DNA from: Microcaldota archaeon
Lineage (GTDB): Archaea; Micrarchaeota; Micrarchaeia; Micrarchaeales; CABMGC01
Assembly: GCA_028866995.1 (NCBI GenBank)
Contig: JAGWHD010000001.1
Coordinates: 119,218-183,217 of the forward strand
Reading direction: 5' to 3'
DNA length: 64,000 bases
Positions 14,088 through 35,613 of the stretch are shown here, in pieces. Position 1 is the stretch's first letter, and every line of letters starts with the position of its first letter. A program made the position numbers and the translations under genes. The notes beneath the pieces are model-generated. The model did no database searches. It was not told the origin of the DNA and saw nothing but the letters and a program-made list of their open reading frames with translations.

Positions 14088-14091
14088 ATCA

Positions 14092-15231: not shown

Positions 15232-15237
15232 TGAACA

Positions 15238-15846: not shown

Positions 15847-17357
15847 CAGCCCACCTTGAAGACATCCCTTGAGTATGGAAGGCCCTTCCTTGCGATGTCC
15901 AACACGTAGTTAGGGTCCTTGTAGTAGTTTGCGACGACGGTGCCTGCGGAATCGACGTCGAACACGTTGTTCTTAGTCATCCAGCTGAGTATCTCTACCT
16001 TCTCCTTTATGTTCTCGTCTATCTCCTGCTTGGTGTATCCGCCATACAGCGTCAGCAGCTCCGCAAGCCTGGACATCCCAGACACCTGGACGAACGAGTC
16101 CGCGCGCATGTTCCACCTGTATATGACGCTGGCGTCGCCGCTCCTCTGTATCTCACCGAACTCGAAGACCCTCCTTATTCCCAGGCGCCTGTGCCTGAAA
16201 AGGGATATTATGCCGCCTATCGAGTTCATCATTATCTTTGGTATGTCCATCGGCGGGTTGACCATCCTTATTATCGTATCCTGCGCGTTGTCCGCGTGTA
16301 TGGTGCCGTACACTGCGTGCCCGGTATGGATCGCCTCGAACAGCGTCTCGGCGTCCGGCTTGGTCCTGATCTCCCCGACGAGCATTATGTCAGGCCTCTG
16401 CCTGAGGGCGTTGATCATCAGGTGGTAGAGAGTTATCTCTCCCTTGCCCTCGGGATTAGGCTGCCTCGTGAGCATCGGCACCCACTGCAGGAACTCCGGC
16501 AGCGTCAGTTCCCTAGTCTCTTCCACGGATATGACTCGCCTTGCCGCAGGCATGAAGATCGATATCGCGTTGAGGAACGAGGTCTTTCCGCTGGCAGTCC
16601 CTCCAGATATCAGCATGCTGATCTCGTTCTGTATGCAGAGCCATATCATGGATGCGAGCTCCGGAGATACAGTCTTGTTGGCTATGAGCGCAGGTATGGT
16701 CCACGGGTTCTTCGAGAATTTTCTTATGGTTATCGTGTTGCCGTGCTGCGAGACCGGGAACAGCGTGGCGTTGACTCTTGAGCCGTCCGTCAGCTCGGCG
16801 TCCATGAGCGGCGTCAGGTTGCTTATCTGCCTTCCTACCCTCCTCCCTATCTGCTCGGCGTCGTTGTAGATGGTATCCTCGTCGAAGAACTTGAGGTTGG
16901 TCTTGCACCACCCGTACAGCTTGTGGAAGACCCAGATGTAGTCCCTTGAGCCATTGACCGCGATCTCTTCCAGGTTGTCGTCCGCAAGCAAGACTTCAAG
17001 GTCCCCAAGACCAAGTATCACGTTGGTGATGTATGCTATGAGAACCCGCTTGACGTCCTCCTTTGTCCCTGGAAGGTACTTGTCTATTATTATGTTCGAT
17101 GCGCTGAGGTACTTCTTGTTGACCTCGGCGATGTATGCTGGGTCGTTGATCCTTGAGGGGTCTATCGGCACCAGCGTCAGCAGCTCGTGCCTTAGCGACA
17201 GCAGCAGTATCTTGGTCGCGTCCCCCAGCCCTGGCACTGTAACGTCATATCTCGGTATGAACCCCCCGGCCTCGTACACCTTGACCTCTGCGACTATGCC
17301 GTGGGCGTCGAGCTTGTAGGTCGCGTAGGTCTTTGGTTGCGTCTCTGCCTCCATCAA
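15846..17357 (-). CDS. Type IV pilus/secretion ATPase (VirB11/TadA/CpaF family)
   Basis: Walker A SGGTASGKTSFLNA; RPDIMLVGEIRTKPDAETLFEAIHTGHAVYGTIHADNAQDTIIRM. Confidence 0.95.
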   Translation of the reverse strand: MMEAETQPKTYATYKLDAHGIVAEVKVYEAGGFIPRYDVTVPGLGDATKILLLSLRHELLTLVPIDPSRINDPAYIAEVNKKYLSASNIIIDKYLPGTKEDVKRVLIAYITNVILGLGDLEVLLADDNLEEIAVNGSRDYIWVFHKLYGWCKTNLKFFDEDTIYNDAEQIGRRVGRQISNLTPLMDAELTDGSRVNATLFPVSQHGNTITIRKFSKNPWTIPALIANKTVSPELASMIWLCIQNEISMLISGGTASGKTSFLNAISIFMPAARRVISVEETRELTLPEFLQWVPMLTRQPNPEGKGEITLYHLMINALRQRPDIMLVGEIRTKPDAETLFEAIHTGHAVYGTIHADNAQDTIIRMVNPPMDIPKIMMNSIGGIISLFRHRRLGIRRVFEFGEIQRSGDASVIYRWNMRADSFVQVSGMSRLAELLTLYGGYTKQEIDENIKEKVEILSWMTKNNVFDVDSAGTVVANYYKDPNYVLDIARKGLPYSRDVFKVG

Positions 17358-18862: not shown

Positions 18863-19240
18863 GTGTTCAATGTGGACATGATAGCATTAAGGAAGTACAT
18901 GAATTACATATTCCTGCTGGTCACAGCCGGAAGCATGTTTGCAGGATTGGCCTCGGCAGCTGCGTCTACAAGCATAAGCCAGCAGCTCTGCGGCATAGTA
19001 GATACTATTAGAAGCATCATAGGGATCCTTGCGCTGCTGCTCTTCATAGCAGGGGGCGCCCTCTATGCAGTGGCCCACGTGATGCCTGCTGCAGGAAACC
19101 TGAAGGGAAACCTGCAGGGATGGTCCGTAGGCATGATAGTCGGAGGAGTTGTAGGGCTCATAATAGTGCTCACTGCACCTTGGGTCCTCAGCAGCATAAT
19201 AGGCTTCGCAGGAGGAAAGGTCTCGGTCCCGAAGTGCTGA
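18863..19240 (+). CDS. VirB2/CedA1-like small pilin candidate (signal peptide plus two TM helices)
   Basis: FLLVTAGSMFAGLASAAA signal; ISQQLCGIVDTIRSIIGILALLLFIAGGALYAVAHVMPAAGNLKGNLQGWSVGMIVGGVVGLIIVLTAPWVL, VirB2-like topology. GTG start as called; ATG at 18878. Confidence 0.65.
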   Translation: MFNVDMIALRKYMNYIFLLVTAGSMFAGLASAAASTSISQQLCGIVDTIRSIIGILALLLFIAGGALYAVAHVMPAAGNLKGNLQGWSVGMIVGGVVGLIIVLTAPWVLSSIIGFAGGKVSVPKC

Positions 19241-19289: not shown

Positions 19290-21188
19290 ATGTGGAAGGT
19301 CTCTCTTTCAGGCATCTCTCTCGCTGAGCTCCTTATCCTTCTTTTTGCCACAGTCCTGCTTTCCGGCACCTTCGGCACCATCGGCACCCTCAACAGGGAG
19401 TTCTCTGCAATAACATCGGCTTTCGCTCTCTTCACCGTGCTTGCGATAGCCTGCCATTTCGCGTTCCGCATCACCAAGAATAAGAGATACCTTCTCGCGC
19501 TCAACGCCTCCTTCGCGATGGCTCTTGCATGTATCGCATACTATTTCTTGCAGTCAGGAGCCATGAATCTGTTCTACCTTGTCAATCTGATAGATTACGC
19601 TACAAAGTACATCCTGCAGTTCCTCATGCTCGTCCCGCTTTTCGTATTCGCAATAATCGGAGCGCATCTCATTGGCGGAAAGAAAGACATGAAGAGGATG
19701 TACATCGGCATTGCGATGCTGGCGCTCGTGCTCTTTGTCCTTTGCATATATTTCCTCAGCGGAAGGATATTCACAGGATACAGGATAGGTGACGAGAACT
19801 ACCTATCGGTGCTGAGCGTCAATGCCACCCTCCATGGCCTGAACCCCTATGCCCTCTCCTTCGAGAGGCAGCTTTACAGCGCGGCATCCTCGGACCGCAT
19901 ACTCGCCAACACCATAACCACGAACAACTCCATAATAGGCAGGTTCGACTATCCGGCGCTCTTCTTCCTGGTCCAGGCCCCTTTCTACATCGTTTCTGGG
20001 TTTGGCATAGGGAGTGTTTCTGGCATAGGGTCGCTGCTGCAGGCCGCGGTCTTCATGTTCATCGCGATCGTGTGCATCGTGTTCAGCATCGACAGGAAGG
20101 GCCTCCTCAAGCCCAAGTATACCCTTATAATATTCGCTGTCCTGGGCCTTTTCTCGATAAACTCCTTTGTCAACCTCCTAATGATAGCGCTGATGGTAAT
20201 CGCGTACAGGAACATCGATAGCAGGCACGTGTGGTTGGCGCTGGGCCTAGCGGCATCCATCCAGGAGGAGATGTGGCTGCCGTGCCTGCTGATGATAGCC
20301 TATGTCTTCAACAACCACGGCGCAAAGAGGGGCATTTACGCTCTCGCAGGCACTATTGCAGTGTTCTTCGCGATAAACGCCTATTTCATTCTCCAAGGGC
20401 CAGCGGTGTTCTTTGGCAACGTGTTCCTTCCAGCGTCATCGAGCATACTCCCCAACGGACCTGCGTTCTTCAGCTCTTTCCTGCTGACCAACTATGGCAT
20501 GCTGCTGGGATCCTTCCCCCAAATCACCGCCATCGTGGCGCTGCTGCTGCTCGTCCTGTTCCTCTACTTCAACAGGAAGGAGATGATATTCCTGTTCTCG
20601 GTGATACCTTGGATGTTCTTCGGCCACGCGCTTGCTGCATACTATGCCATGTTCTTCTTCCTGTTCGTGGCGTCGCTCCACATAAGCACTAAGGAGAGGC
20701 AGGGACGCCTGGCAACAGTGATGAGAAAGAGCGTGATGGCCAGGTACGTGACTGCCGGTGCCTTTTCGGCACTTCTTGTGTCTGTCCTCCTTGTGGCTTA
20801 CTCGTCACATGCGGCATACGTCAGCGGTTTCCAGATGAGCATAACGAACCAGAGCCTCAGCCACCAGGGCAACATGAGCGTCTACGATGCAGACATCGGA
20901 TACTGGCATCTCTCTAACAATACAATGCATCTCGTTATATACGGATACGGCAATTACACCGATGGCCAGTACGGGTTCTACAACCAGAGCATGATACCTG
21001 AGAGCGCGCAATGCACCAGCCACAGGTGCCTGGTAAACCCGAACATCATACTCCTCAATGGCAGCGATTCGTCTTACCATATCCGCGCGGTCATAACCTC
21101 GAACTCGCTTACGCCCATAACGTACGCGTCGGCAGAGCTGTACAACGGCCAGTACGTCTACGTTGCCCATGGCGTCTGGTACCATTGA
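19290..21188 (+). CDS. Polytopic membrane protein, GT-C glycosyltransferase-like
   Basis: Multiple TM helices; GYRIGDENYLSVLSVNATLHGLNPYALSFERQL lumenal loop typical of GT-C-type (GT39/DUF2029-like) proteins. Confidence 0.5.
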   Translation: MWKVSLSGISLAELLILLFATVLLSGTFGTIGTLNREFSAITSAFALFTVLAIACHFAFRITKNKRYLLALNASFAMALACIAYYFLQSGAMNLFYLVNLIDYATKYILQFLMLVPLFVFAIIGAHLIGGKKDMKRMYIGIAMLALVLFVLCIYFLSGRIFTGYRIGDENYLSVLSVNATLHGLNPYALSFERQLYSAASSDRILANTITTNNSIIGRFDYPALFFLVQAPFYIVSGFGIGSVSGIGSLLQAAVFMFIAIVCIVFSIDRKGLLKPKYTLIIFAVLGLFSINSFVNLLMIALMVIAYRNIDSRHVWLALGLAASIQEEMWLPCLLMIAYVFNNHGAKRGIYALAGTIAVFFAINAYFILQGPAVFFGNVFLPASSSILPNGPAFFSSFLLTNYGMLLGSFPQITAIVALLLLVLFLYFNRKEMIFLFSVIPWMFFGHALAAYYAMFFFLFVASLHISTKERQGRLATVMRKSVMARYVTAGAFSALLVSVLLVAYSSHAAYVSGFQMSITNQSLSHQGNMSVYDADIGYWHLSNNTMHLVIYGYGNYTDGQYGFYNQSMIPESAQCTSHRCLVNPNIILLNGSDSSYHIRAVITSNSLTPITYASAELYNGQYVYVAHGVWYH

Positions 21189-21230: not shown

Positions 21231-21962
21231 TTGGGAAACATCGTCAGCGATTCGTTCGAGCTATACAAGAAGAACCTCAAGCTCGTGCTCTTCTTCTCAA
21301 TACCGTTCATAATAGCTTTTGCCATACCTCTGCTGGCTCCGTTCCCGACATACGTCAGCATAGGCGCGATATTCCTCAGGAGCGCGAGCATATTCGTCAA
21401 CATGAACCCGATAAGCCTTGCCGTCATAGCGATATCCACATTCTTCAGCCTGCTCTTCCTTAGCTTCGCCTTCGTTGCGATAAGCCTGATAGTAAAGTCA
21501 GAGAAGACGCACGTCAAGATAGGAATCAGGGTAATCAACGACATAGAGAGGCACATAGGCAGTGTCTTCATCGTCCTTCTTGGATACACCATCTTCTTGA
21601 TGGCAGTGAACATATTGAGCTATTACGCAGGATTGGAGGGCGTGGCGACGCCGTTGCTCGGCTTCGTAGCCTTCCTGCTGATATTCTATGCCCCTAGCGC
21701 GATAGTCGTTGACAACAAGCACGCGTTCAGGGCCATATGGGACAGCGCGAAGCTCGTGATAAGGGAGCCGCAGTACTTCTTGATATGGCTGCTGCTCATT
21801 ACGCTGGTAGGGTCGGTGCTCGACCTGCTGACCATAGGCATATTCGGCACCTTCTGGTCAAGGTACGTCATGCTGGTGCTCAATTCTGTTTTCGTGCTCC
21901 CGTACTTTGTCATATTCATGGCAGAGGCGTACATGAGGAGGTTCAAGCTGCTGAAGCACTGA
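21231..21962 (+). CDS. Polytopic membrane protein of unknown function
   Basis: About six TM segments; FELYKKNLKLVLFFSIPF N-terminus; TTG start. Confidence 0.6.
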   Translation: MGNIVSDSFELYKKNLKLVLFFSIPFIIAFAIPLLAPFPTYVSIGAIFLRSASIFVNMNPISLAVIAISTFFSLLFLSFAFVAISLIVKSEKTHVKIGIRVINDIERHIGSVFIVLLGYTIFLMAVNILSYYAGLEGVATPLLGFVAFLLIFYAPSAIVVDNKHAFRAIWDSAKLVIREPQYFLIWLLLITLVGSVLDLLTIGIFGTFWSRYVMLVLNSVFVLPYFVIFMAEAYMRRFKLLKH

Positions 21963-22038: not shown

Positions 22039-23331
22039 ATGCGAGCACTCCCCATGCTGTTGCTCATTTTAGTCCTAGCGATGCTTGTTTCGGGAAGGGC
22101 CTCTGCTGCTTTTTACCAGGACAAGGCGTACTGCAACACCCAGGTGGCGACGGGCGCGTACGCGATACCTGTCGCGGGCATAGAGCTCTCCCTGCTGGCG
22201 ATAAGCCTCTCTTTCAGCGTGGTCGCGATAGCGGTTATGATAAATAGGCTTGTCCCGAGCTCAGGAGTCAGCGGCTGGATAAACAACGAGTACTGGGAGC
22301 TCGCCAAGTCGGTCATGCTGATAGCGGCAATCTATGGACTCCTGACGTTCATGAGCAACATCGCTCTCTGGATAAACCCCTCCCCGGGGATAAACCCAGG
22401 CACAGGTTCCTATACCGGCTTCGCATCCGGCACGACCTACAGCCAGAACATAGGAGGGCCTGGAGGGCTGCTGGTAGGGGCTGAGGGCTACATGTGCAAG
22501 GTCAGCCACGAGCTGCTGAGCGCTACGCTTGCCATGGGCCAGATGTCGCTGGGAGTAAAGCTGCTGCAGCATTCGCTCTCATCGCAAAGCGGCCTGCAGA
22601 TTGGTGCATACACGCCCATACCGATCCCGTTGCCCCCAGGGTTCTGGCTCAAATTCGGCTTCACCGCCTATCCATACGCGAGCCTGCTCCTTGACAGCGG
22701 GAGCATCATCATAGGCGCGTTTGCGTCGCCAGTAAGGGACGCGGTCGTCTTCCTGTTATTTCCCATGACCTCGTTGGTAGTGGTGGTGGAGCAGCTGCTC
22801 CCAGCGCTGGCCAGCATAGGCCTTGAGGTGCTGATACCTCTGGGGCTGGTGCTTAGGGCATTTCCGTTCGCTAGGGGTGTTGGCGGCACAGCGGTAGCGA
22901 TAGGCATCGGAGCTGCTGTAGTGTATCCGGCACTGCTGGTTCTGTTCAACCAGCCGATAGACTATTACATAACCAGTGCGTATCCAATCAGTACCGTACA
23001 TCCGCCTTATACATGCGCAGACGCGGTCTCAGGAATAGGTGGCGTGGGGGGCACAGTGCTCAGCGTATTATGCGGAGGGGTTGACCTTACTGTGGGCCAG
23101 ATAGCGGATAGCGTGTATGGGTTGGCCGAGGCGCTACCGTGGACATGGCATGTCTTCGGCCCGGCCACGCCTTACCTCAATTTCCTGATAGACAATCTTT
23201 TTTACATAGTGCTTAACTTCCTCCTGTTCGCACTTGACCTGATACTGATGTATCCGATAGTCGATTCCATAGCCAGGTCGCTTGGAGGAACGATAAGATT
23301 CGAGCTTGGAGGCAAGCTGAGGCTGGCATGA
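22039..23331 (+). CDS. VirB6/TrbL/CedA-like polytopic protein, paralog 1
   Basis: Signal peptide; motif PLGLVLRAFPFARGVGGTAVAIGIGAAVVYPAL. Confidence 0.65.
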   Translation: MRALPMLLLILVLAMLVSGRASAAFYQDKAYCNTQVATGAYAIPVAGIELSLLAISLSFSVVAIAVMINRLVPSSGVSGWINNEYWELAKSVMLIAAIYGLLTFMSNIALWINPSPGINPGTGSYTGFASGTTYSQNIGGPGGLLVGAEGYMCKVSHELLSATLAMGQMSLGVKLLQHSLSSQSGLQIGAYTPIPIPLPPGFWLKFGFTAYPYASLLLDSGSIIIGAFASPVRDAVVFLLFPMTSLVVVVEQLLPALASIGLEVLIPLGLVLRAFPFARGVGGTAVAIGIGAAVVYPALLVLFNQPIDYYITSAYPISTVHPPYTCADAVSGIGGVGGTVLSVLCGGVDLTVGQIADSVYGLAEALPWTWHVFGPATPYLNFLIDNLFYIVLNFLLFALDLILMYPIVDSIARSLGGTIRFELGGKLRLA

Positions 23332-24536
23332 TGTTCGGGTTGTTATTGCAGAGCAGCACCGTGTACCAGAACTACTGCACATTCGGAGGCATCAACACGA
23401 ATGACTGGGTGGGCATATGCACGCTTGTCATAATGGTGCTTCTGATGATAGGAGGCGCAATCTACGCGATCAGCAGCATATTGCCTGCTGCGATGCGGGA
23501 GAGGCTCAAGGGCGGCGCGAAGACCGAGATATTCCAGGCGTTGCTGGGCGCGATCATAGTGGCTGTTGTGGTCGCATTTGCCATGACGGCGTGCAGCATA
23601 GCGCAGACGATAACCTCCAGCACCACGACGCACATATTCAGCGGCGTCCAGTACAGCGATCCCATAGTCTTCGCACTGGCATATATGCGCGACCTAGTCT
23701 TCACCAAGGCGCTGGCGCTGTTCAGCCAGATATACTCGGAGACCATATCCCTTGTCTTATGGGGCAATGTACTAGGAGCGATAGCCGAGTTTACCTTCGG
23801 CACGGCGCAGTTCGCTACGGGAAACATCCAGATATCGCTGAGTGAGGATATCGTAGGGGTCTTCTTCGGGTTCTCCGGAGTCATGTCAGGGGCATACACG
23901 ACCCTGCTGATCGTGACCTTCGGCATACTGTACATACTCTACATATTCCTCGTCATAATACAGCAGACGGCGCTGACGGTCCTGCTGCCGCTTGCCATAG
24001 TCATGAGAAGCCTTCCGTTCATGGGGCCGAGGCTTAGGGAGACCGCAGATTCCTTCCTTGCGATAGCGATAGCCTTCTACTACATATTCCCGATGGCGAT
24101 AATACTGAACAACTTCATAGTCTCGTGGCTGTACACCTCCTGCAGCACGGGAGCCGAGCTGTGCAACCCCTACGTGCAGTATGCAGAGCCGTACAACCTT
24201 GGCAACATAGACATAACGAACCTCTTCAAGTCCGATTCCGTGGTGCATCTGGGCACGCTAGGCATCAACCTTCCGTTCACGTATTTCGGGCAGGGTCTGA
24301 CGGGTCTTGGAGGCTTCGGCAATGAGTTCACCTCCGGGTTCACAGCGATGGTTGCATTGCCTAACCTGATATTCCAGTACGGGTACCTTACTGCAGAGTA
24401 CATATTCGAGGGCATAGTGTTGATGGGACTTGCGATACTCATAACGGTAGGCTTTGCGCAGGGGCTCAGCAAGGCGCTTGGTTCCGCATCGAGGATAATC
24501 GGCTCAGGACCGATATGGGGAGGAGGTGGCAGCTGA
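23328..24536 (+). CDS. VirB6-like polytopic protein, paralog 2
   Basis: PLAIVMRSLPFMGPRLRETADSFLAIAIAFYYIFPMAI; N-terminal LLMIGGAIYAISSILPAAMRERL hairpin; 4-nt overlap. Confidence 0.65.
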   Translation: MMFGLLLQSSTVYQNYCTFGGINTNDWVGICTLVIMVLLMIGGAIYAISSILPAAMRERLKGGAKTEIFQALLGAIIVAVVVAFAMTACSIAQTITSSTTTHIFSGVQYSDPIVFALAYMRDLVFTKALALFSQIYSETISLVLWGNVLGAIAEFTFGTAQFATGNIQISLSEDIVGVFFGFSGVMSGAYTTLLIVTFGILYILYIFLVIIQQTALTVLLPLAIVMRSLPFMGPRLRETADSFLAIAIAFYYIFPMAIILNNFIVSWLYTSCSTGAELCNPYVQYAEPYNLGNIDITNLFKSDSVVHLGTLGINLPFTYFGQGLTGLGGFGNEFTSGFTAMVALPNLIFQYGYLTAEYIFEGIVLMGLAILITVGFAQGLSKALGSASRIIGSGPIWGGGGS

Positions 24537-26207
24537 ATGAACTACAAGCTCGCAATTCTCGCTGTCGCGGCACTGGCCGCATGCTTTGCGACGTACGCGT
24601 ACGCAGCAACATCCACAGCGTCAGTGGCAAAGAGCAGCATTACCGATTTCTCGGCGTTCGACAGCTGGCTTGCCGTCATAATAATAGCCATAATCCTGAG
24701 CTTCTCCCTGGCAGGGGCGCAGTACCTGATAGGGGTGATGCTCAGCAACCAGGGAGTCAGGGCGAGAGCGCTCTCGGAGTTCGGGCAGGCTTTCGGCAGC
24801 GTTGCGCTCGTAGTAATCGTGCTCATAGTGATCAACTTCTTCGGAACCACGCTGACTGCAGCGAACCTCATAGGGCCCGGCAAGATCGCGCCGATATGCA
24901 ATACGCTGCAGGGCAGCGGCATCGACTTCCTCAACTCCAACCCGTCGAACGGCGGACTGATAAAGGGGCCCAGCCCGACAGCTGTAATCTGCGATAACAT
25001 AATAATGGGCAAGAGCACGCACACCGTCACGCGGGGCATCGATTACGGTCTGGGAGCGATTTACGTCATAGACGCGAACATGACGAACCAGACGCTGAGG
25101 GACTTCAGCGAGATATACAGCTGGGACAACTTTCTCCTGTTCCTGAGGCAGGCTAAGGAGTACGAGAGCCTCTGCTTCCCCGAGTGGTGCGCCGATCCTA
25201 TCGCGCCGCCCAGCGCAAGCATAAAGGTGTCGTACGACTACTTTGCAGGGTACGTCCTGCACAGGGGCATCACGCCGATCATGGCCGGTGAGAACACTCT
25301 GGGGTTCTACGTCTTCTTCGTGCAGCTCATAGTCATACTCATGTTCCTGCTTGTGTGGCCATACATGCTAGCCGCAGGATTGATACTCAGGTCTGTGAAC
25401 TTCACCAGGAGGTTAGGCGGCTTCCTGATAGCGTTGACGATAGTCATACTCTTGGTATATCCGTTCCTTAACCTCATGGAGTATTCGGCGCTCAGCAACA
25501 TGCAGAAGCTGGATCCTGCAGGTGCAAGCAGCATGCCCAACCTGGCGCTCTGCGCCAGGGCGAGCCAGACCGTAGTGCCGTACTGCGCTGCGGGAAGCGG
25601 ATGCGCGGCACCCAAGCAGATAGACACCAGCGGACTTGATGGTGTGTACTGCTACACGACGGCAGACAAGCTGCCGGCTAGTTACATTTTCAAGGGTATA
25701 CCTCCTGATAACATGAAGAACAGCGACATGGTAAGCGCATGCCCGAGCGGGTCCAGCGTTAAGCAGTCGCAGGACTGCTACGTCAGGAAGGACATCAATC
25801 TGTATGTGTTGCCGGACATAAAGGACGTCACGCGCCTGTACAGCTGGTGGCCCGGAGGAGGGAACATACTGGAGGGGGAGACAGAATTCTACCTGTGGGC
25901 GCTCGCGCCGGGCAACAGCGGGCCGGTAAGCCTATCCAGCGTGATCTCGCTCTTCAGCAACGGCTTCACGAACCTTGACAGCTTCCCCGAATGCTTCAGC
26001 ATATATGGAGTGCCGCTGCACCTGTGCATGGGCCCGAAGCACCTGGCGACGACGCTCAGCGCGCTGTTCAACCTGTATGCGCTGTTCGCATTGTCCGCAT
26101 TCGTCATCCCGATAATAAACACGTTACTGGTGCTCTCGGCCACGCTCGGGCTGTCGTCGCTGCTAGGCGGTGAGACGACGCTACTCGGGCTCACGAGGTT
26201 CGTATGA
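24537..26207 (+). CDS. VirB6-like polytopic protein, paralog 3
   Basis: AAGLILRSVNFTRRLGGFLIALTIVILLVYPFL; signal peptide. Confidence 0.65.
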   Translation: MNYKLAILAVAALAACFATYAYAATSTASVAKSSITDFSAFDSWLAVIIIAIILSFSLAGAQYLIGVMLSNQGVRARALSEFGQAFGSVALVVIVLIVINFFGTTLTAANLIGPGKIAPICNTLQGSGIDFLNSNPSNGGLIKGPSPTAVICDNIIMGKSTHTVTRGIDYGLGAIYVIDANMTNQTLRDFSEIYSWDNFLLFLRQAKEYESLCFPEWCADPIAPPSASIKVSYDYFAGYVLHRGITPIMAGENTLGFYVFFVQLIVILMFLLVWPYMLAAGLILRSVNFTRRLGGFLIALTIVILLVYPFLNLMEYSALSNMQKLDPAGASSMPNLALCARASQTVVPYCAAGSGCAAPKQIDTSGLDGVYCYTTADKLPASYIFKGIPPDNMKNSDMVSACPSGSSVKQSQDCYVRKDINLYVLPDIKDVTRLYSWWPGGGNILEGETEFYLWALAPGNSGPVSLSSVISLFSNGFTNLDSFPECFSIYGVPLHLCMGPKHLATTLSALFNLYALFALSAFVIPIINTLLVLSATLGLSSLLGGETTLLGLTRFV

Positions 26208-27418
26208 TGAGAGTAGGATTCTCGATCTTCATGGCCGCGCTGTTTGCGCTTACTGCCCTTGCGGCCATCGCGCAGGCCGCGAACCAGCCTCCTGGAACCG
26301 TGACCAACAAGTACGACATAATAGACTGCAATGCGTTCATTGGCAAAGGGCAGGTGGGAGGGGGAAGCCCTTTCCTGGCGCCGACGCAGCTGATCAACCC
26401 CAACCTCCTGGGCTATGTCAAGAACGGAACCTACAACTCCCTGCTTGAGATATCGGTCATCATCGTCCTGCTGATGTTCATGGTGCTTGGCATAGTCTAC
26501 GCGGTGGGATTCGCATTCCACATAGATAGGCTTGTCGCGTTCGCCAAGACCGAGGCGCTCGAGAGCGTGTTCAACCTCGTGATAGTTGTAGTGGTGGCTG
26601 GAGGGATAGGTGCGGTTGACAGCTCCATAGCTTTCGTGTCAGGCCTTGGCACGCTGGGGAATCTCGGGGGCAGCCAGATAAGCAACGCGCAGGGGCTGTA
26701 CGTCTCCCTCTGCAGCGCCGTACAGCATACAGTGATGATAAACGGGATGGAGAACTGGCTGGGCGCGACCTTCGGTCTCTTCTCCAACCAGTTGATAGCC
26801 TCGATAACGCTGAATGCGATGCCAGGCGGCTTCGGCATAAACTTCTCGCCGTTCGGGGTCATGACGACGCTGACGCAGGTGTTCTGGCTCGAGCAGGACG
26901 TGTTCGTCTTCATGGTGGAGATGGGGGCAGGCCTCATCATGCTTCTCGCGTTCATATACTTCCTCTTCCCGCTGTTCCTCTACCTAGGCATAGTGCTGAG
27001 GGCGTTCCCATGGACCAGGGCGGCAGGAGCGGCCTTCATATCCATGTTCATATCGTTCTACATAATCTTCCCGGCCCTCATGTACCCGTTCTCTGTCACC
27101 GCTAGCAGCGCCGGGAGCTCCGTGCTGTGCGACCAGAGCAATGTGGACGCCAATCCCAACCTCGCCACAATCTGCGACACATCCAGCCTGATGAGCATGC
27201 AGCTCTTCAACCAGATCCTGCAGACGCTGCATTTCGACATAGGCGGGGTGCTTTACGAGACAATAGTAAGCTTTGGGCTGGCGATGGTGCAGGTTGGAGT
27301 CCAGATGATGGGGCTGCTGTTCGCACTGCTCATTTCTTATGATCTTATGGACCATATTGCTGATATCATAGGCGCGCCTTCGCTTGACAGCAGGAAGACG
27401 CTTAGCAGGTTGTTGTGA
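26204..27418 (+). CDS. VirB6-like polytopic protein, paralog 4
   Basis: YLGIVLRAFPWTRAAGAAFISMFISFYIIFPAL; signal peptide; 4-nt overlap. Confidence 0.65.
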   Translation: MMRVGFSIFMAALFALTALAAIAQAANQPPGTVTNKYDIIDCNAFIGKGQVGGGSPFLAPTQLINPNLLGYVKNGTYNSLLEISVIIVLLMFMVLGIVYAVGFAFHIDRLVAFAKTEALESVFNLVIVVVVAGGIGAVDSSIAFVSGLGTLGNLGGSQISNAQGLYVSLCSAVQHTVMINGMENWLGATFGLFSNQLIASITLNAMPGGFGINFSPFGVMTTLTQVFWLEQDVFVFMVEMGAGLIMLLAFIYFLFPLFLYLGIVLRAFPWTRAAGAAFISMFISFYIIFPALMYPFSVTASSAGSSVLCDQSNVDANPNLATICDTSSLMSMQLFNQILQTLHFDIGGVLYETIVSFGLAMVQVGVQMMGLLFALLISYDLMDHIADIIGAPSLDSRKTLSRLL

Positions 27419-28461
27419 TGCTTGGGTATTACCTCATATTGCTCGGAAGCTGCCTTAGCAGCGCAACCAACTTCATCACGAACCCGTCGAACATATGGGC
27501 CCCCATAGTCGTGCTTGGCGTACTGATGGTCAGCATGATACTAGGCATGCTGTACATCCTTAGCCCGTTGATCGGCAGGAATGACATAAGGACATGGGTG
27601 AGGGCGAAGCTCTACGACCAGATGTTCACGGTCGTGCTGCTCCTGATATTCCTGTCGTTCTCGACGGCGCTATGCTCATACCGGCCTGGCGGCAGCCTCG
27701 ACGGATTAGGGTTGCTGCCTGCCGCCTGCAGCGGCTCCTCGATAGACAGCATATACGGCATAGCAGCATGCGACATATACACCTTCAACGGCAACATACA
27801 GGGCATGAGCGAGTCCGCTTACCTGCTTGCGATGGTCGTTTCCCTGAACCCGAACGTGGGCATATCTACAGGATATGGAGGCATCGGCGTAAGCATCGGC
27901 TTCAATCTGATCCCCGTAGAGCCTGTGCACCATTACCTGATACCTTTCATGAGCCTCTTCTACGGCCTCATAATGATATCGCAGATGCAGCAGCTGTTGG
28001 TCGGGGCGTCGATGTTCCTGTTCCCAGTGCTCATGGCGATAGGGCTCCTGGCTAGGGCCTTCGGCGTGACAAGGACCTTTGGAGGATCCATGATAGCGCT
28101 GGCGCTCGGCCTGGGTTTCGTCTATCCGATGCTCGTGAGCGTGACCTACGGCTTCCTCGACTACATGCTTGGGAACATCGGAGGGCCGACGGATACGATA
28201 CTCACAATGACGGTGAACTGGCTGAGCTCCACATACGTCCTGAAATTCATAGAGTCAATATTCACCTTCAACCTGGGCAACGTAATCGCGGCTGCGCTGA
28301 CGATTGCGCAGCCGCTGATCATATACAGCGGCATAATAGTGCTGGGCATCGGCTTCGTGCCTCTCATGGTCATAACAGTGCTCGACGCGTTCGTGGTGGA
28401 CGTCTCGAGAGTCATAGGAGAGAGGGTTGACGTGATATCCCTGCTGACAAGGATAATATGA
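27415..28461 (+). CDS. VirB6-like polytopic protein, paralog 5
   Basis: LMAIGLLARAFGVTRTFGGSMIALALGLGFVYPML; 4-nt overlap. Confidence 0.65.
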   Translation: MMLGYYLILLGSCLSSATNFITNPSNIWAPIVVLGVLMVSMILGMLYILSPLIGRNDIRTWVRAKLYDQMFTVVLLLIFLSFSTALCSYRPGGSLDGLGLLPAACSGSSIDSIYGIAACDIYTFNGNIQGMSESAYLLAMVVSLNPNVGISTGYGGIGVSIGFNLIPVEPVHHYLIPFMSLFYGLIMISQMQQLLVGASMFLFPVLMAIGLLARAFGVTRTFGGSMIALALGLGFVYPMLVSVTYGFLDYMLGNIGGPTDTILTMTVNWLSSTYVLKFIESIFTFNLGNVIAAALTIAQPLIIYSGIIVLGIGFVPLMVITVLDAFVVDVSRVIGERVDVISLLTRII

Positions 28462-29612
28462 GTGTTGCAATGAGGCTGAGGTACGTTGCATTCATGCTTC
28501 TCGCGCTGTTAGTTTCATCTTCGACCATGGCTGCGAGCGCGCAGGACATATCGGCAACCAGCTACTGCAGCAAGGAGGGCGTAGCCAACATATTGGCTCC
28601 ATGGTACTGCAACGCGAAGACAGGCATAGACCACGCGATACAGTCGACATGGATAGGCACGTCCGGAAATCCAGGATATGTAGCCATCGGCTTCCTAGCC
28701 GTGATGCTGTCATTCTCCTTCGCTGCGCTGATAATAATGTTCGGCATAGTCCTGAAGAACGAGAGGCTCAGGACTTTCGGGATAGGGGAGCTGTACGAGG
28801 CGCTTGCGACCGCATTCATGGTTGGTATGTTCGGTTTCGTCGCAGCCGTGCTGTTCGGAATCCTCCCGTCTCTCGTGACGGGCACCATAAACCCGTACGA
28901 TGCTACATTGACATACCTTTCTCAGACGATAAATGCCACCAGTACGCTGCACACCAAGCTCGCGGAGATAGCCCTTGTGGATGGGTATTACGCAAGCATA
29001 CAGCTCCAGATATGCAATTCCATCTCTGGTGGCGGTGGAATAGTTGGGTCCTTGCTTTGCCACGCTCCGGTAGCAAAGATCGGCAGCGAAGCGCTGTGGT
29101 TCGGCTTCTTCTGGCCTGCATGGACAATAATAGAGTTCCTCACAGGCGCAATCATATCGCTCTGGCTGCAGTACTGGCTCCTCATCTTCTTCCTTTATGC
29201 GGCAGTCCCAGTATTCCTGATACCTGGAGTCATACTCAGGGCCTTCATACCGACAAGGTCCTTCGGAGGCATGCTGATGGCGATAGCGATAGGCTTCTAC
29301 TTCCTGCTGCCAATGCTCTTCTCCATAGCATACTATCTCACGAACCAGAGCCTCACCTTCCAGCTGAACAGCGCGATAACGAACCTGGACAAGTATGGGA
29401 GTGGAACAGGAGCAGAGCAGAATGCGCTTACTCCGTTCTCGCCGCTTGTCACTGAGCTGTCGAACATCCAGGACACGTTCAGCTCCTTCTGGCTCGAGAT
29501 CGCCTTCTTCCCGGCAGTCAACCTCAGCATAACCTATGCGTTCATAGTCCAGATAGCCGAGATACTGGGAGGCAGGGGCAGGACATCCAGCAAGCTCAGG
29601 ACAATAGCATAG
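28458..29612 (+). CDS. VirB6-like polytopic protein, paralog 6
   Basis: IPGVILRAFIPTRSFGGMLMAIAIGFYFLLPML; signal peptide; 4-nt overlap. Confidence 0.65.
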   Translation: MSVAMRLRYVAFMLLALLVSSSTMAASAQDISATSYCSKEGVANILAPWYCNAKTGIDHAIQSTWIGTSGNPGYVAIGFLAVMLSFSFAALIIMFGIVLKNERLRTFGIGELYEALATAFMVGMFGFVAAVLFGILPSLVTGTINPYDATLTYLSQTINATSTLHTKLAEIALVDGYYASIQLQICNSISGGGGIVGSLLCHAPVAKIGSEALWFGFFWPAWTIIEFLTGAIISLWLQYWLLIFFLYAAVPVFLIPGVILRAFIPTRSFGGMLMAIAIGFYFLLPMLFSIAYYLTNQSLTFQLNSAITNLDKYGSGTGAEQNALTPFSPLVTELSNIQDTFSSFWLEIAFFPAVNLSITYAFIVQIAEILGGRGRTSSKLRTIA

Positions 29613-29655: not shown

Positions 29656-30762
29656 ATGCGTACAAATATCTTGATAAATATGCTGCTGTTGGTTGCGGTA
29701 TTGACCCTCGGTGCGATAAATGCGCTAATACCGGTACTGATAATCATAATACTTCTGGTAGCAGCGGCCGGTACAACGAGGGGCTACAGCATATTCAACC
29801 TCTTCGGGATAGCGACGCTTGCAGGCGCGGTCAGCGCGTCAGGAAAGGGAGGGCTTGGAGGCAGGACCGCATTGACTCTTGGAGTTTACTTCCACAGGAT
29901 AGTAGGCAAGAATACATTCACTAAAAACACAGGCCTTAAGAGCGTTCTGGCCAAGGCCGGGAAGGGAGTAGGCGCTGCAGTTGGTGCCGCTCGAGGAGGA
30001 AGAGGAGGCGGCGGAGGGGGTGCTGGTGGAGCCGGAGCTGGAGGCGGCGGTGGTGCTGGAGGAGGAGGAGGAGCAGGCGGAGGAGGCAGAGGCGGACGTG
30101 CGTTCCAGCTTCCTGTAGCAGGCAGAGGAGCTAGGGCGGTTGCAGGCGTAAAGAAAGGGGCTGGGAGAGCCGCAAATCTGGCCGGCAAGGGCATCGGAGC
30201 CGGTTTCGCGCTGACGATGCCGACAGCATGGCTCATATCGAGAGTGCCAAAAGCAGCGAAGGTGATGGAAAGAGGCACGGATAAGCCGCTGAGCGGGCTA
30301 AAGGCAAAGATCATACCTAACAGGTTTCATGGTGCGATAGAAGGAGGCTTTGCAAAGCTCCCTACCGACTTTCCTTCAACTGTCCTTGGCAGTGTTAAGG
30401 GCGGAAAATACGTCAACCTGCACAGTAGCACCATAAATGCAGAGGGCGAGTTCGCAGGGACCAAGTTCCATAAAGCAGTGAAAATAGTCTCTTTAGGTAG
30501 ACTTGATTCTACAAAACCATTAAATATAGGGAAAGTGCAGGCTTGGCGCGAAAGGGAAGGACCGTATAGGGAGGATTCCAAGCTTAATTATATAACCTCT
30601 GAGGACCTCAAAGCAGGCGGCAGGATGCTTGGGACTGTCGCATTTACAGCGATGAATCCTGTTACTGGGGCCGCGTGGGCAGGATACCACCGCAGGAACA
30701 GGATAAAGAAGGAACGCGGAAAGGTAGAGAAGGGTGCAGAGGGTGGAAGCGATACCGGCTAA
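29656..30762 (+). CDS. Membrane protein with Gly-rich linker and basic C-terminal region
   Basis: Two N-terminal hydrophobic segments; GGRGGGGGGAGGAGAGGGGGAGGGGGAGGGGRGG linker; promoter-like TATAAATAT upstream. Confidence 0.7.
   Translation: MRTNILINMLLLVAVLTLGAINALIPVLIIIILLVAAAGTTRGYSIFNLFGIATLAGAVSASGKGGLGGRTALTLGVYFHRIVGKNTFTKNTGLKSVLAKAGKGVGAAVGAARGGRGGGGGGAGGAGAGGGGGAGGGGGAGGGGRGGRAFQLPVAGRGARAVAGVKKGAGRAANLAGKGIGAGFALTMPTAWLISRVPKAAKVMERGTDKPLSGLKAKIIPNRFHGAIEGGFAKLPTDFPSTVLGSVKGGKYVNLHSSTINAEGEFAGTKFHKAVKIVSLGRLDSTKPLNIGKVQAWREREGPYREDSKLNYITSEDLKAGGRMLGTVAFTAMNPVTGAAWAGYHRRNRIKKERGKVEKGAEGGSDTG
29990..30105 (+). repeat. Low-complexity GGN/GGA-rich tract encoding the poly-Gly/Ala linker
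   Basis: gaggaggaagaggaggcggcggaggggg...ggaggaggaggaggagcaggcgg. Confidence 0.8.
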
Positions 30763-30871: not shown

Positions 30872-31708
30872 GTGGCTAGAGACATCCAGATATTGACTCT
30901 TGTATTGCTTCTGAGCGTCGTCTTCGCCCTCGGGGTCTTCATATCCCTTATCCCTGCGCAGCTCTGGCCCGTCTCGGTAGTCCTTGCAATAATAGCGCTT
31001 GCGCTTGACGTGATCGCGTTCGCCAACAAGTTCTACTTCTACCTTGCGGAGCCTCTCAGGAAGATGAAGAACAGGGTGATAACGATACAGCAGGAGGATT
31101 CCTTCTACATGTACCCTTCGGGCTCCGCGATAGCCATCAGGAACGGCAGCGAGGTGACGGCCAGCGCATTCGTCAAGATACCTGTTTACAGGTCGGCGAC
31201 CGAGATGACAGATGAGGAGAAGATGAACTTCGCAAGGCTCTTCGCAAGGGTGGTCACGATGAGCAAGTACCCGATCAGGATATCTGCTGAGCAGTATGTC
31301 ATTAACAAGGACGAGTTCATAGACAAGATATCCAAGAAGCTTTCGGACGCGCAGCAGAAGTACACCTCGATAACCTCGAACAAGGACGCCCCCAGGAACG
31401 AGGTCGACAGGATAGAGGGCGAGCTGACAATGTGGCACAACCTGTTCGCCAACGTGACAAAGGCAAGGTCGCAGGGCCAGATGGCGTTCGCGATGGTGAG
31501 CGCTGTCGGGGCAAGCGAGGAGGAGGCGGTGAACCTTGCCACGCAGAAGGCCGAGGAGATAGCTGCAGGAATAAGCGCAACGCTGGGGATAACCGCGGCG
31601 GTGGCGCACGGCGAAGAGATACTGGCGTTCCTTGAGCCGGAGTACATGATACCGCCTACCACAGTGACTGAGATGATGAAGAAGCAGGAGCAGGGGGCGC
31701 AGGTGTGA
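30872..31708 (+). CDS. VirB3-like TM plus VirB4-N-terminal-domain-like protein A
   Basis: Two N-terminal TMs, then a soluble alpha/beta domain; GQMAFAMVSAVGASEEEAVNLATQKAEEIAAGIS parallels the adjacent ORF. Confidence 0.55.
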   Translation: MARDIQILTLVLLLSVVFALGVFISLIPAQLWPVSVVLAIIALALDVIAFANKFYFYLAEPLRKMKNRVITIQQEDSFYMYPSGSAIAIRNGSEVTASAFVKIPVYRSATEMTDEEKMNFARLFARVVTMSKYPIRISAEQYVINKDEFIDKISKKLSDAQQKYTSITSNKDAPRNEVDRIEGELTMWHNLFANVTKARSQGQMAFAMVSAVGASEEEAVNLATQKAEEIAAGISATLGITAAVAHGEEILAFLEPEYMIPPTTVTEMMKKQEQGAQV

Positions 31709-32532
31709 GCATGGACCAGAACACTATGATATACCTGACAGTAACAGGCCTTATGGCCGTATTCATATTTCTCGGTCCGAGCTATGGGCCCTTCGCGATG
31801 CCTGTGAGGGTGCTGGCGGTGCTGGCGATAATACTAATACTCATAATAAACTACGCTGACTTCATGGTCTTCCCGATATTCACGAAGCTGTTGGGGATAA
31901 GCATAGTTCCGGCAAGAGGCTATGTCATACCCAAAACCCAGGATTCCGTAATAAAGAATGTCAGCGGCCTATTCTACGCCACAGGCTACCTGACCGCGAA
32001 CATCTACAACTACGTCTTCACCGCGGAGCAGATGGTGCAGGGCGAGGACGAGGACATGGCCAGGGGGCCTGACAAGTGGGAGAAGGCGGTGATGTCGATA
32101 GACTTCCCGTTCAAGTTCAACGTCATGACGGTTGCGCATGACATACAGAAGTTCAGGGAGGATCTGGAGGGCAAGCGCTCCTTCCTCGAGTTCCAGTACT
32201 CCAAGGAGATGGGATCAGGCAATCCCAGCCCGTCCTTCATAGACGAGCTGCAGAGGAAGATGCGGGTCATAGAGACGAGGATGGACAGGCTCGGGCAGGG
32301 AGAGAGGCCTGTGGACAGCATCATGTACATAGAGACGACTTCGGTAGGCGTAAGCGAGAAGGAGGCCGCTGACAAGCTCACAGAGCAGCTGAACCACCTC
32401 CAGACCGTATTCAACGTGTTCGACCTGAGCATAACCAGGATAGTAGGAAGGGAGCTCTATCTGCTCCACAAGTACAATTATATAGTTCCGGACCTAAAGG
32501 AGCTTAGCGCCAACTTCACAGAGCAATCATGA
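31705..32532 (+). CDS. VirB3-like TM plus VirB4-N-terminal-domain-like protein B
   Basis: Two TMs; IDFPFKFNVMTVAHDIQKF...SIMYIETTSVGVSEKEAADKLTEQLNHLQTVFN, VirB4/TraC NTD-like; immediately upstream of ATPase. Confidence 0.6.
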   Translation: MSMDQNTMIYLTVTGLMAVFIFLGPSYGPFAMPVRVLAVLAIILILIINYADFMVFPIFTKLLGISIVPARGYVIPKTQDSVIKNVSGLFYATGYLTANIYNYVFTAEQMVQGEDEDMARGPDKWEKAVMSIDFPFKFNVMTVAHDIQKFREDLEGKRSFLEFQYSKEMGSGNPSPSFIDELQRKMRVIETRMDRLGQGERPVDSIMYIETTSVGVSEKEAADKLTEQLNHLQTVFNVFDLSITRIVGRELYLLHKYNYIVPDLKELSANFTEQS

Positions 32533-32540
32533 TGATCTGA

Positions 32541-34046
32541 ATGGGACTTGTGCACGTGCAGAACGTAATGTCGAACGAGCTCGCGAAGAGGGTATTCTTC
32601 ACGAGGCCCCCCGAGCCTCCGCACGAATTCCTCCTCAACGACCCCACGAACTCGATATTCATAGGCATAACCAAGAGGTTCAGCGTGCCCTTCACGTGGA
32701 CCTTCGCTAACCTCACCAACCCGCACCTTGCAGTGGTCGGAATAACAGGGTCGGGAAAGTCCTTCTTCGTCAAGACGTTCCTGCTCAGGGCCAACTACAT
32801 ATGGGGCACTAACGCGATAATAGTAGACTGGGCAGGGGAGTACAAGTCGTGGGTGAAGCAGAGCGGCGGCACCATAGTCTCTCTGGGCAAAGGGGATTAC
32901 ATAAACCTGATGGACCTCTCGGGCATGAAGCCGCTTGACAGGAGCAAGCAGATAATGAACTCGCTCGACATACTCACCGATCTGCAGGGCTTCCCTGAGC
33001 AGAGGAGGCTGACAGCAGAGGCGATAGAGCAGTCGTACGTAAACGCAGGCTTCGCCCTTGCCGCAGTGCCCGATCCAAACAAGGATGCGCCTACGCTCAA
33101 GGACGTCAGCAGGCTGCTGGAGGAGAAGCTGCAGGAGGGCACATACGAGTACCCTGCGGAGCTGGAGAACGCGGTATACAGGCTCAGGCAGTTCTCAAGA
33201 GAGGGCCAGGACTACTTCGCCAGGAAGAGCACGATAGACCTAGCGAAATTGTCGAGCTCGGGGCTGGTCGACATCGACCTGTCCGGATTGCCAGACGAGA
33301 AGTTCAGGGCCCTTGCCGCATTCTTCATATTGCAGACGTTGAAGGAGAAGATGAGAGCAGAAGGGTGGAGCTCCGCAAAAGGCCTCAAGGCGATAATAGT
33401 GCTGGACGAGGCGTGGAAGGTCGCAAGCGACGACAGGAGCGACGCGATAACGATAATACGAGAGGGGAGGAAGTACCAGTTCGGCCTGATAGTCGCGTCG
33501 CAGAACCCTACCGACGTCAACGAGGCGATATTCTCCAACGTAGGCACGACTGTCATGCTCAGGATAAGGTTCGAGAAGTTCATGGACTACCTGCAGGGAT
33601 CGCTTAACTTCTCCAACTTCATAAGGGGGGAGATAGGAAAGTTCGGTGTGGGGCAGGCAGCGGTGGACCTCTCGTTCCAGACTAGCATACAGTTCCCAAG
33701 TGTTTTCGTCATAGACAGGGTGGTAGGGGAGGTACCGCTTGACGTGTACACGATAACGCTGATAAACGTCCTCAATGAGGACGAGTTCGGGGACAAGGAG
33801 CTGCAGAAGGAGTACTACTTCGAGAAGATATCGCTGAGCTCGAAGTTCGCTGAGAACAACCTCGACGTCGAGGTCGCGGACAGAATATTCAAGGCGATGG
33901 AGGAGAAGAACAGGAGCATAGACATAAGGAGCCTCGCTGAGACAATGAGGGCGCTGAACATAAGCAAGGACATAGTAATAAAGTTCTTCAGGAGCCTTGG
34001 AATACCTGAGAAGATAATATCCAGGATATTCGCAAGCATAAGCTGA
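32541..34046 (+). CDS. VirB4/HerA-family (DUF87-type) conjugation-like ATPase
   Basis: Walker A VVGITGSGKSFFVKTFLLR; Walker B AIIVLDEAWKVASDD; LIVASQNPTDVNEAIFSNVGTTVMLR. Confidence 0.9.
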   Translation: MGLVHVQNVMSNELAKRVFFTRPPEPPHEFLLNDPTNSIFIGITKRFSVPFTWTFANLTNPHLAVVGITGSGKSFFVKTFLLRANYIWGTNAIIVDWAGEYKSWVKQSGGTIVSLGKGDYINLMDLSGMKPLDRSKQIMNSLDILTDLQGFPEQRRLTAEAIEQSYVNAGFALAAVPDPNKDAPTLKDVSRLLEEKLQEGTYEYPAELENAVYRLRQFSREGQDYFARKSTIDLAKLSSSGLVDIDLSGLPDEKFRALAAFFILQTLKEKMRAEGWSSAKGLKAIIVLDEAWKVASDDRSDAITIIREGRKYQFGLIVASQNPTDVNEAIFSNVGTTVMLRIRFEKFMDYLQGSLNFSNFIRGEIGKFGVGQAAVDLSFQTSIQFPSVFVIDRVVGEVPLDVYTITLINVLNEDEFGDKELQKEYYFEKISLSSKFAENNLDVEVADRIFKAMEEKNRSIDIRSLAETMRALNISKDIVIKFFRSLGIPEKIISRIFASIS

Positions 34047-34050
34047 TGGC

Positions 34051-34347
34051 ATGGCCGCAACATTCACCGTGAGCAGGGTCGAGATCAAGAGGATGCTAGC
34101 GTCGCTCGGCATAGCGGACAAGAGGATAGACCAGCTCCTCAGCGACATGGACAAGAGCCGCAGGCACGTGAACGTGATCATGCTTGTGAGGATGCTCCAG
34201 AACACGGGCATAAGGCAGAGGGATGTCGCGAACATACTCAGGAGGATAGGGATAGACGACGTATCCATAGCCAAGGTCTTCGACGTCATAGACGAGACCA
34301 GGATAAACGAGGCGTTCGGAAGGGTAGTTGAGATAAACGTTGTATAG
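34051..34347 (+). CDS. Small helical protein homologous to the C-terminal extension of the adjacent ATPase
   Basis: SDMDKSRRHVNVIMLVRMLQNTGIRQRDVANILRRIGIDDVSIAKVFDVID aligns with KAMEEKNRSIDIRSLAETMRALNISKDIVIKFFRSLGIPEKIISRIFASIS. Confidence 0.7.
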   Translation: MAATFTVSRVEIKRMLASLGIADKRIDQLLSDMDKSRRHVNVIMLVRMLQNTGIRQRDVANILRRIGIDDVSIAKVFDVIDETRINEAFGRVVEINVV

Positions 34348-34355
34348 TGGTTTGA

Positions 34356-34718
34356 TTGGAGGGCAAGAGCTACTGCGTGATATGCGGGGAGCAGAAGAGA
34401 GGGCTACATGTAAAGATAGACAGGGTCATAGACGCTATACGCTGGTTCAAGACGAATGTCACGAAGAACGAGAGGAACAACACCTTGGTGGTATGCAAGG
34501 GGTGCTACCCGGAATACAGCAAGATGAGGAAGAAGTACGTGGCCAGGATGTACCTGTACGTGGGGCTTGGAGTGCTCTTCACAATACTTGTGCTCCTGAT
34601 GAGCCTATCGATACTCTCGCTCCTGATAGGCGCGCTGCTGACCGGAGCGCTGTTCCTGTTCTCGCTGCTGAACTACATACCAGACCTTGAGATCGACGAG
34701 AAAAAGCATGCCAAGTGA
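34356..34718 (+). CDS. Zinc-ribbon-like, two-TM membrane protein
   Basis: CVICGEQ...VVCKGC paired Cys; two hydrophobic segments. Confidence 0.65.
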   Translation: MEGKSYCVICGEQKRGLHVKIDRVIDAIRWFKTNVTKNERNNTLVVCKGCYPEYSKMRKKYVARMYLYVGLGVLFTILVLLMSLSILSLLIGALLTGALFLFSLLNYIPDLEIDEKKHAK

Positions 34719-34725
34719 GGCTGGT

Positions 34726-35613
34726 ATGGGCGCACGACTCCAGTCAGCGATGGAATACCTGATGACATACGGATGGGCCATACTCGCCATTGCGATCGTC
34801 ATGGTGTCGCTCTATTCGCTGGGCATATTCAATTCCGGGAGCCTGCAGCCTGTCGCTACTCCGGGGTCGTGCGAGGTTGTAAGGACCGTTGCTCAGACCA
34901 GCCTCGCAGGGCAGTGCAGCGGGCTCATCCCAAAATATGTAGGCGTATTCGGCGGTTCGGGCAGCTACATAAGGATTCCCAGCAACCTGGCCGTGGACGC
35001 AGGGGCGCATGATCTCACCGTATCGTTGTGGTTTTACGCACAGTCGAACGACGCAGGTTCCACTTACATTGGCCTTCTTGGAAAAGGGGGCCAGGATAAT
35101 TCGGCAGGAGGATACGAGTTCTTCCAGCACCAGTCGTCAAGCATCTCCTTCAGGGTAACGCAGACCGGGAACGGAGCGCAGTACGGCGTGACGGTTTCCC
35201 TAACCAGCGCATTTCTAAACAACACCTGGTACCACGTTGTCGGAATTGTAAACAGGACCAGGAACACGGCCCAGGTGTGCGTAGATGCGGTGTGCGGAAG
35301 TACGGCGAACATATCCACGCAGACTACGCTATCCTCTTCTGCCGATCTTAAGATCGGGAATGACGGAGCCGGTCCTCTGAACGGCAGCATGGCAAACGTC
35401 CAGATGTACAATGTTTCATTAGACAACGCCACAATAAAGGGGCTCTACAAGGAGGGGATAGGAGGAGTGCCAATAGACGTGAAGCATCTCACGGGCTGGT
35501 GGCCCCTGAACGGCAACGGAAATGACTATTCAGGCAACAACAACCATGGAGCGTTAGTAAACGTCAAATGGAACGCCAATTGGCAATCCAGCTATTCTCC
35601 GCCTTCTTCATAG
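34726..35613 (+). CDS. Class III signal peptide pilin-like protein with LamG domain
   Basis: MGARLQSAMEYLMTYGWAILAIAIVMVSLYSLGIF; TGWWPLNGNGNDYSGNNNHG. Confidence 0.85.
   Translation: MGARLQSAMEYLMTYGWAILAIAIVMVSLYSLGIFNSGSLQPVATPGSCEVVRTVAQTSLAGQCSGLIPKYVGVFGGSGSYIRIPSNLAVDAGAHDLTVSLWFYAQSNDAGSTYIGLLGKGGQDNSAGGYEFFQHQSSSISFRVTQTGNGAQYGVTVSLTSAFLNNTWYHVVGIVNRTRNTAQVCVDAVCGSTANISTQTTLSSSADLKIGNDGAGPLNGSMANVQMYNVSLDNATIKGLYKEGIGGVPIDVKHLTGWWPLNGNGNDYSGNNNHGALVNVKWNANWQSSYSPPSS

Follow-up and report, generated by a model that had tools for sequence, protein, structure and literature searches.

Six consecutive open reading frames (ORFs), V1 to V6, occupy positions 22039-29612 of the window, a 64,000-nucleotide stretch from the 0.93 Mb genome of a Micrarchaeota archaeon, and we consider it probable that they encode position-specific channel subunits of a chromosomal type IV system of the Ced/Ted kind, most likely a hetero-hexameric one. 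The channel of such a system is normally made from a single protein. A fixed set of six sister genes in unchanging order suggests that six distinct parts make up a ring here. The run had been singled out in an earlier note on this DNA, which described six VirB6-like paralogs that share one signature motif. Its description of the layout is accurate: four of the five junctions are 4-nt overlaps and the other, V2/V3, is directly abutting (Table 1).

Six paralogs in constant number and order

Because the identity of the other V proteins to V1 is merely 18-24% pairwise, we tested their homology with ortholog-group profiles. Eighty loci were gathered via the downstream VirB4-like gene, B4, and iterative hidden Markov models (HMMs) sorted their ORFs into V1-V6, G7, N8, N9 and B4. 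The six V ortholog-group alignments were compared using HHalign, with reversed profiles, which keep the transmembrane (TM) composition, and four other operon genes as controls. All 15 V-V pairs gave an HMM-HMM probability of 96.5-99.5% (E 8e-10 to 2e-22), against no more than 9.8% for the reversed profiles and about 3% or less for the four other operon genes. The earlier note had allowed that the likeness might go no further than generic TM composition; the reversed-profile controls rule out chance TM similarity, and by this profile evidence the six V ORFs are true paralogs, homologous to one another.

The shared motif is found in each of V1-V6, every time in the TM3-TM4 loop of the mature core, in agreement with the equivalent position claimed for it. 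Inside each ortholog group its columns (G, R, (T)R, GG and a closing P) are mostly 87-100% invariant. The exception is the V2 group, which has lost TRxxGG, a conserved loss that is consistent with specialised subunits. Outside the core, the lengths of the V proteins are strongly variable. Position 3 proteins of five stand-alone arrays (L116, L126, L131, L166 and L172) reach about 970-1290 aa, which suggests that this one subunit bears large extracytoplasmic domains.

A profile of the six V proteins matched 178 of 197 Micrarchaeota genomes, mostly with at least six matches. Relatives that carry a name are Micrarchaeota or closely related bins; one of them, the cultivated Micrarchaeum sp. A_DKE (L068), also has the six-gene array. 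Most genomes are metagenome-assembled, and start codons were assigned mechanically. Every complete array holds exactly six V genes (64/64; 39 beside B4 and 25 stand-alone). Where the array adjoins B4 and V1 is not at a contig edge, all 37 read V1-V6 in order with no extra V. The same holds for the number in distant families (18/18), where two arrays adjoin N-B4 and 16 stand alone, often two per genome. Position-specific HMMs made from these 18 arrays were applied to 16 new stretches, which contained nine complete arrays of six genes each, and all 54 of their genes scored best with the HMM of their own position, in order. Partial arrays at contig ends likewise keep gene order. One array, L130, has four genes and is cut by a contig end. 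The L173 array has one short extra ORF, a second piece best matching position 3, which may reflect a frameshift. The six are thus co-conserved 1:1 in fixed order, the outcome of a check that the earlier note had suggested, and lineage-specific decay or variable copy number is ruled out by the constant six of the complete arrays.

Trees, built from quick searches, agree with fixed positions. In a tree of 150 B4-linked proteins each of V1-V6 forms one clade (approximate likelihood-ratio test 99-100), and in a 31-array tree covering many families the position labels need 11 changes, where the minimum is 5 and the shuffled mean 120. When the single V proteins of the minimal cassette described below are included, positions 2, 3, 5 and 6 each come out as one clade, as does the single V, and positions 1 and 4 are less cleanly resolved. 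On this phylogenetic evidence, each of the six positions is a separate ancient lineage. Second arrays inside the same genomes also retain all six V genes, and arrays were most likely duplicated as units of six, since the position lineages hold across the trees of many arrays. In the window's own genome, the only further V copy is a 613-base contig (C31, locus L156) with pieces of the V1 end and V2 start, perhaps from strain variation or contamination. No relatives of V6 or N9 were found in viral contigs, and there is therefore no sign of a viral system.

The minimal cassette and the partner genes

At 11 loci a pilin, a single V, an N9-like gene and a B4-like gene are neighbours, one of them without a recognised pilin. 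All six V proteins are homologs of the single V (HHalign 99.0-99.8%), V6 being nearest (99.8%, E 2e-28). The one-V loci are a distinct minimal cassette rather than decayed arrays, and some genomes carry them alongside six-gene arrays (for example L153 and L119 of genome G038). The pattern of one conserved gene with the rest in lineage-specific decay, which the earlier note had considered, was not borne out. The one-gene version is a natural control for the hetero-oligomer hypothesis.

We came upon a pilin candidate in the window, PIL, by way of short ORFs that precede V1 in related loci; a pilin also stands first in the minimal PIL-V-N-B4 cassettes. Its best Pfam family is TrbC/VirB2 (0.0023), and its relatives match TrbC/VirB2 (1e-4) and T4SS_pilin (2.8e-5), all below the gathering score. 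CedA1 is reported to resemble CedA, and VirB2 to resemble VirB6 (PMC9905601). Consistent with this, the pilin profile matches the first two TM segments of V2 with 85-90% probability, and the reversed and non-V controls reach no more than 2%. We claim this link for V2 alone, because the likeness to V1, V4, V5 and V6 weakens once the minimal-cassette pilins are added. In two loci, L118 and L119, a tandem pair of pilin genes precedes the array.

The best Pfam matches of B4 are DUF87 (7.6e-15) and the TraG P-loop (2.9e-10). In NCBIfam, CedB is the best of many at 7e-18, below the cut-off, with HerA models nearly as good as VirB4. N8 and N9 are paralogs of each other (HHalign 99.3%). An AlphaFold2 model of N9, with a predicted local distance difference test score (pLDDT) of 81, had as its top Foldseek match in the PDB 7o41_A (prob 0.99, E 0.048), a chain of VirB4 size from the R388 inner-membrane complex, and also matched 8rtd_V (prob 0.93). 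This match of the model to the N-terminal part of R388 VirB4 is supportive rather than conclusive; together with B4, N8 and N9 look like the parts of VirB3/VirB4 in separate genes. The earlier account of the locus lacked the pilin, these split VirB4 parts, the duplicate six-gene arrays and the one-V cassette. One further genome (G142) has pilin, N9 and B4 in a separate locus without V genes (L115) and two stand-alone six-gene arrays; there, one ATPase may serve two channels.

A proposed VirB6-like channel and the alternatives

We base the VirB6 label on topology, synteny, the pilin similarity and a loop motif like that of VirB6. VirB6 has a five-TM topology in which TM3 and TM4 flank a conserved central cytoplasmic loop (PMC7648143), and by hydropathy the window V proteins have about five TM segments, a long TM2-TM3 loop and a conserved TM3-TM4 loop, most clearly in V2-V5. 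The published consensus of the VirB6 loop is P-x7-F-x2-T-x6-W (PMC10732058). All 11 single V proteins have a P-x7-F-x2-T-R loop motif, without the W of that consensus; P-x7-F-x2-T is found in 7 of 12 plasmid VirB6 sequences, arises by chance at 3.4% per shuffled sequence, and appears mostly in degenerate forms in the B4-linked six.

Several results weigh against a VirB6-type hexamer. The V proteins have no family match in Pfam or NCBIfam, their profiles reach less than 1% against the 12 plasmid VirB6 sequences in HHalign, and neither the TrbL/VirB6 model PF04610 nor the NCBIfam CedA model NF041796 has a match in the window's genome; direct assignment to VirB6/TrbL, CedA or any Pfam or NCBIfam family failed in these searches. 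The AlphaFold2 model of V6 has no significant match in the PDB and gives only E 0.65-0.95 against chains of the R388 stalk complex, and an alignment of the six V sequences used as a profile matched no solved structure. A VirD4 coupling protein (PF02534) was not found in the genome, nor was a PF03432 relaxase (other relaxase classes were not searched). Solved or modelled VirB6 rings are pentamers, and six genes need not mean a hexamer. Because the sequence profiles give no link and the V6 model no significant fold match, we call the V proteins VirB6-like, not VirB6. Topology, the single-V loop motif and synteny lend support to that part of the earlier description, and Pfam, NCBIfam and HHalign provide no link to the family itself.

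These data allow us to propose a history and a mechanism. Homology, the constant six, positional orthology, the operon setting and the family or fold matches of B4, N9 and the pilin are observed; VirB6 identity, the union of all six in one complex, a ring with each V once, the pilus and the substrate are inferred. The ancestor would have been a single VirB6/CedA-like channel gene, of the type still seen in the minimal pilin-V-N-ATPase cassette, and tandem amplification would have raised it to six copies before the sampled families split. Each of these copies would then have become tied to one position, with whole arrays later duplicated in units of six. One copy of each V protein would most likely form a hetero-hexameric ring or pore in the cytoplasmic membrane, seated on a hexamer of the VirB4-type ATPase B4, which would be held at the membrane by the 2-TM VirB3/VirB4-N-like proteins N8 and N9. 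The ring would serve as the base of a VirB2-like pilus, and ATP hydrolysis would drive pilin and substrate to or from a partner or host; by analogy with Ced/Ted, the substrate may be DNA. The missing VirD4 and PF03432 relaxase would resemble Ced/Ted DNA exchange, and host-directed transfer is possible. Micrarchaeota are host-dependent and their contact machinery is little known, and the system is a candidate DNA-exchange or host-interaction apparatus.

We favour six subunits of one channel because the paralogs have diverged, are never lost and overlap, and because the channel proteins known from such systems form rings. Since VirB4-class ATPases have six subunits, a 6:6 match is attractive. 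The more specific proposal, an obligate hetero-hexamer of six VirB6-type subunits matched 6:6 to VirB4, with a homo-oligomeric one-gene version in related and some of the same genomes, we regard as evenly balanced.

It seems unlikely that each V protein instead forms a homo-oligomeric channel of its own, the six being alternatives that serve, for instance, different partners or substrates and share one ATPase. Such channels would suit the great differences in V length outside the core, the genomes of other families in which two or more arrays are served by few N-B4 loci, and the minimal cassette, in which one V gene can suffice. Optional variants should, however, vary, be lost, converted or shuffled, whereas 64 of 64 arrays keep six in order with positional orthology, and the overlapping stop and start codons suggest translational coupling, with products made in matched amounts.

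Less likely again is a core that is not a 1:1 hexamer, such as an R388-like pentamer of five V proteins with one accessory, perhaps V2, or uneven copies. Five-plus-one has to be weighed because the VirB6 rings seen are pentamers on a VirB4 hexamer, and V2 combines the conserved TRxxGG loss with the nearest likeness to the pilin among the V proteins. On the other hand, six agrees with the hexameric VirB4 class, V2 is retained as strictly as the other V proteins, and motif-degenerate subunits are common within hetero-oligomeric rings. Quite improbable is an envelope or pilus-assembly complex that is no type IV secretion system (T4SS) and shares just a HerA-like ATPase: the V proteins lack a family match, B4 matches HerA models nearly as well as VirB4 and the pilin scores lie under the Pfam gathering thresholds, yet the same four genes, for a pilin, a V, a 2-TM VirB4-N-like protein and an ATPase, recur together, the best PDB match of the N9 model is R388 VirB4, and the single V has a loop motif like that of VirB6.

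A type IV pilus-like cluster of the window (13095-17357, minus strand), about 1.5 kb from the pilin candidate, is a different pilus system. Laminin_G_3 lectin-like surface proteins, possible adhesins, are encoded at 34687-35613 and 9518-13054; the former begins like an archaeal type IV pilin (QSAMEYLMTYGWAIL), and the latter, of 1178 aa, has Kelch repeats besides Laminin_G_3.

Table 1. Positions in the window of the six V genes, their operon partners and nearby genes.
Feature	Position	Strand	Remarks
V1, VirB6-like subunit, position 1	22039-23331	+	HHalign to V2-V6 98.8-99.5%; own clade
V2, VirB6-like subunit, position 2	23328-24536	+	Motif diverged; N-terminus most pilin-like
V3, VirB6-like subunit, position 3	24537-26207	+	Largest extracytoplasmic insertions; proteins at this position measure 1143-1290 aa in other arrays
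V4, VirB6-like subunit, position 4	26204-27418	+	HHalign; own clade
V5, VirB6-like subunit, position 5	27415-28461	+	HHalign; own clade
V6, VirB6-like subunit, position 6	28458-29612	+	Of the six profiles, nearest to the minimal-cassette V; AlphaFold2 pLDDT 85
PIL, VirB2/CedA1-like pilin candidate, 120 aa, signal peptide and 2 TM	18878-19240	+	Related-locus pilin HMM 2e-28
Polytopic membrane protein of 632 aa, encoded between the pilin gene and the array, membership uncertain	19290-21188	+	About 12 TM, no Pfam match
243-aa membrane protein just 5' of the array, membership uncertain	21231-21962	+	About 7 TM, no Pfam match
G7, Gly-rich, one N-terminal TM	29656-30762	+	Recognised in 11/80 loci
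N8, 2-TM (VirB3-like) with cytosolic domain, N9 paralog	30872-31708	+	Found in 74/80 loci
N9, 2 N-terminal TM and domain	31705-32532	+	Model most like the N-terminal region of R388 VirB4
B4, VirB4/CedB/HerA-type P-loop ATPase without N-terminal domain	32541-34046	+	DUF87, TraG P-loop, CedB
S11, 98-aa helical protein	34051-34347	+	Directly 3' of B4 in most loci; weak likeness to B4 C-terminus
Z12, 120-aa CxxC...CxxC protein with membrane segment, association uncertain	34356-34718	+	
T2SSE ATPase	15846-17357	-	Type IV pilus-like cluster
T2SSF membrane proteins, two	13095-14087, 14092-15231	-	Type IV pilus-like cluster

Relation to known systems

The Ced/Ted systems of Sulfolobales and Thermoproteales exchange DNA by means of a CedA1/TedC pilin, a CedA/TedA channel and a CedB/TedB ATPase (PMC9905601). 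Like them, the window system is archaeal and chromosomal, without a found relaxase, and combines a VirB2-like pilin, a polytopic channel and a VirB4/CedB-type ATPase; in both the pilin resembles the channel N-terminus, and the one-V cassette of Micrarchaeota is laid out in the same way as Ced/Ted. Unlike Ced/Ted, its channel gene is six paralogs with no CedA-family sequence match, and it adds two 2-TM VirB4-N-like proteins as separate genes. Open-access papers joining Micrarchaeota with VirB6, CedA or VirB4 pili included none on such a system.

Multiple VirB6 genes are in themselves already known. The rvh T4SS of Rickettsiales has 3-5 VirB6 paralogs, which in Anaplasma are co-transcribed beside virB3-virB4 (PMC10732058; PMC7648143). 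Rvh shares with the window system several divergent tandem VirB6-like genes near virB4-type genes, some hugely extended, in host-dependent organisms. It differs in its copy number (3 to 5), in a recognisable VirB6 family and in belonging to diderm bacteria, whereas complete Micrarchaeota arrays from many families all have six genes, with positional orthology and duplication of entire arrays. The Rickettsiales expansion is a parallel, not a relative, of the window array. We found no report in the open-access literature of an invariant six with positional orthology and arrays duplicated as blocks, nor of its occurrence in Micrarchaeota. MCM2-7 and proteasome alpha1-7 are hetero-oligomeric rings derived from homo-oligomers, and the array resembles them in its fixed paralog number and its position-specific lineages, all kept; they are established complexes, whereas the ring proposed for the array is a predicted one.

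VirB6-type rings have been treated as homo-oligomers (pentamers), and how a T4SS channel is coupled to its hexameric ATPase is an open question. In the R388 Trw T4SS, a VirB6 homopentamer sits on a hexameric VirB4 (PMC9259494). The window system would share with it a VirB6-type stalk base over a VirB4 hexamer with a 2-TM VirB3, and the N9 model resembles the N-terminal part of its VirB4. R388 has one VirB6 gene, a 5:6 symmetry mismatch and VirB4 as one protein, whereas in the window system VirB4 is split into separate genes and six V genes would permit a 6:6 match. A six-paralog channel of constant gene number, with a one-gene sister system, is a natural comparison for stoichiometry and symmetry.

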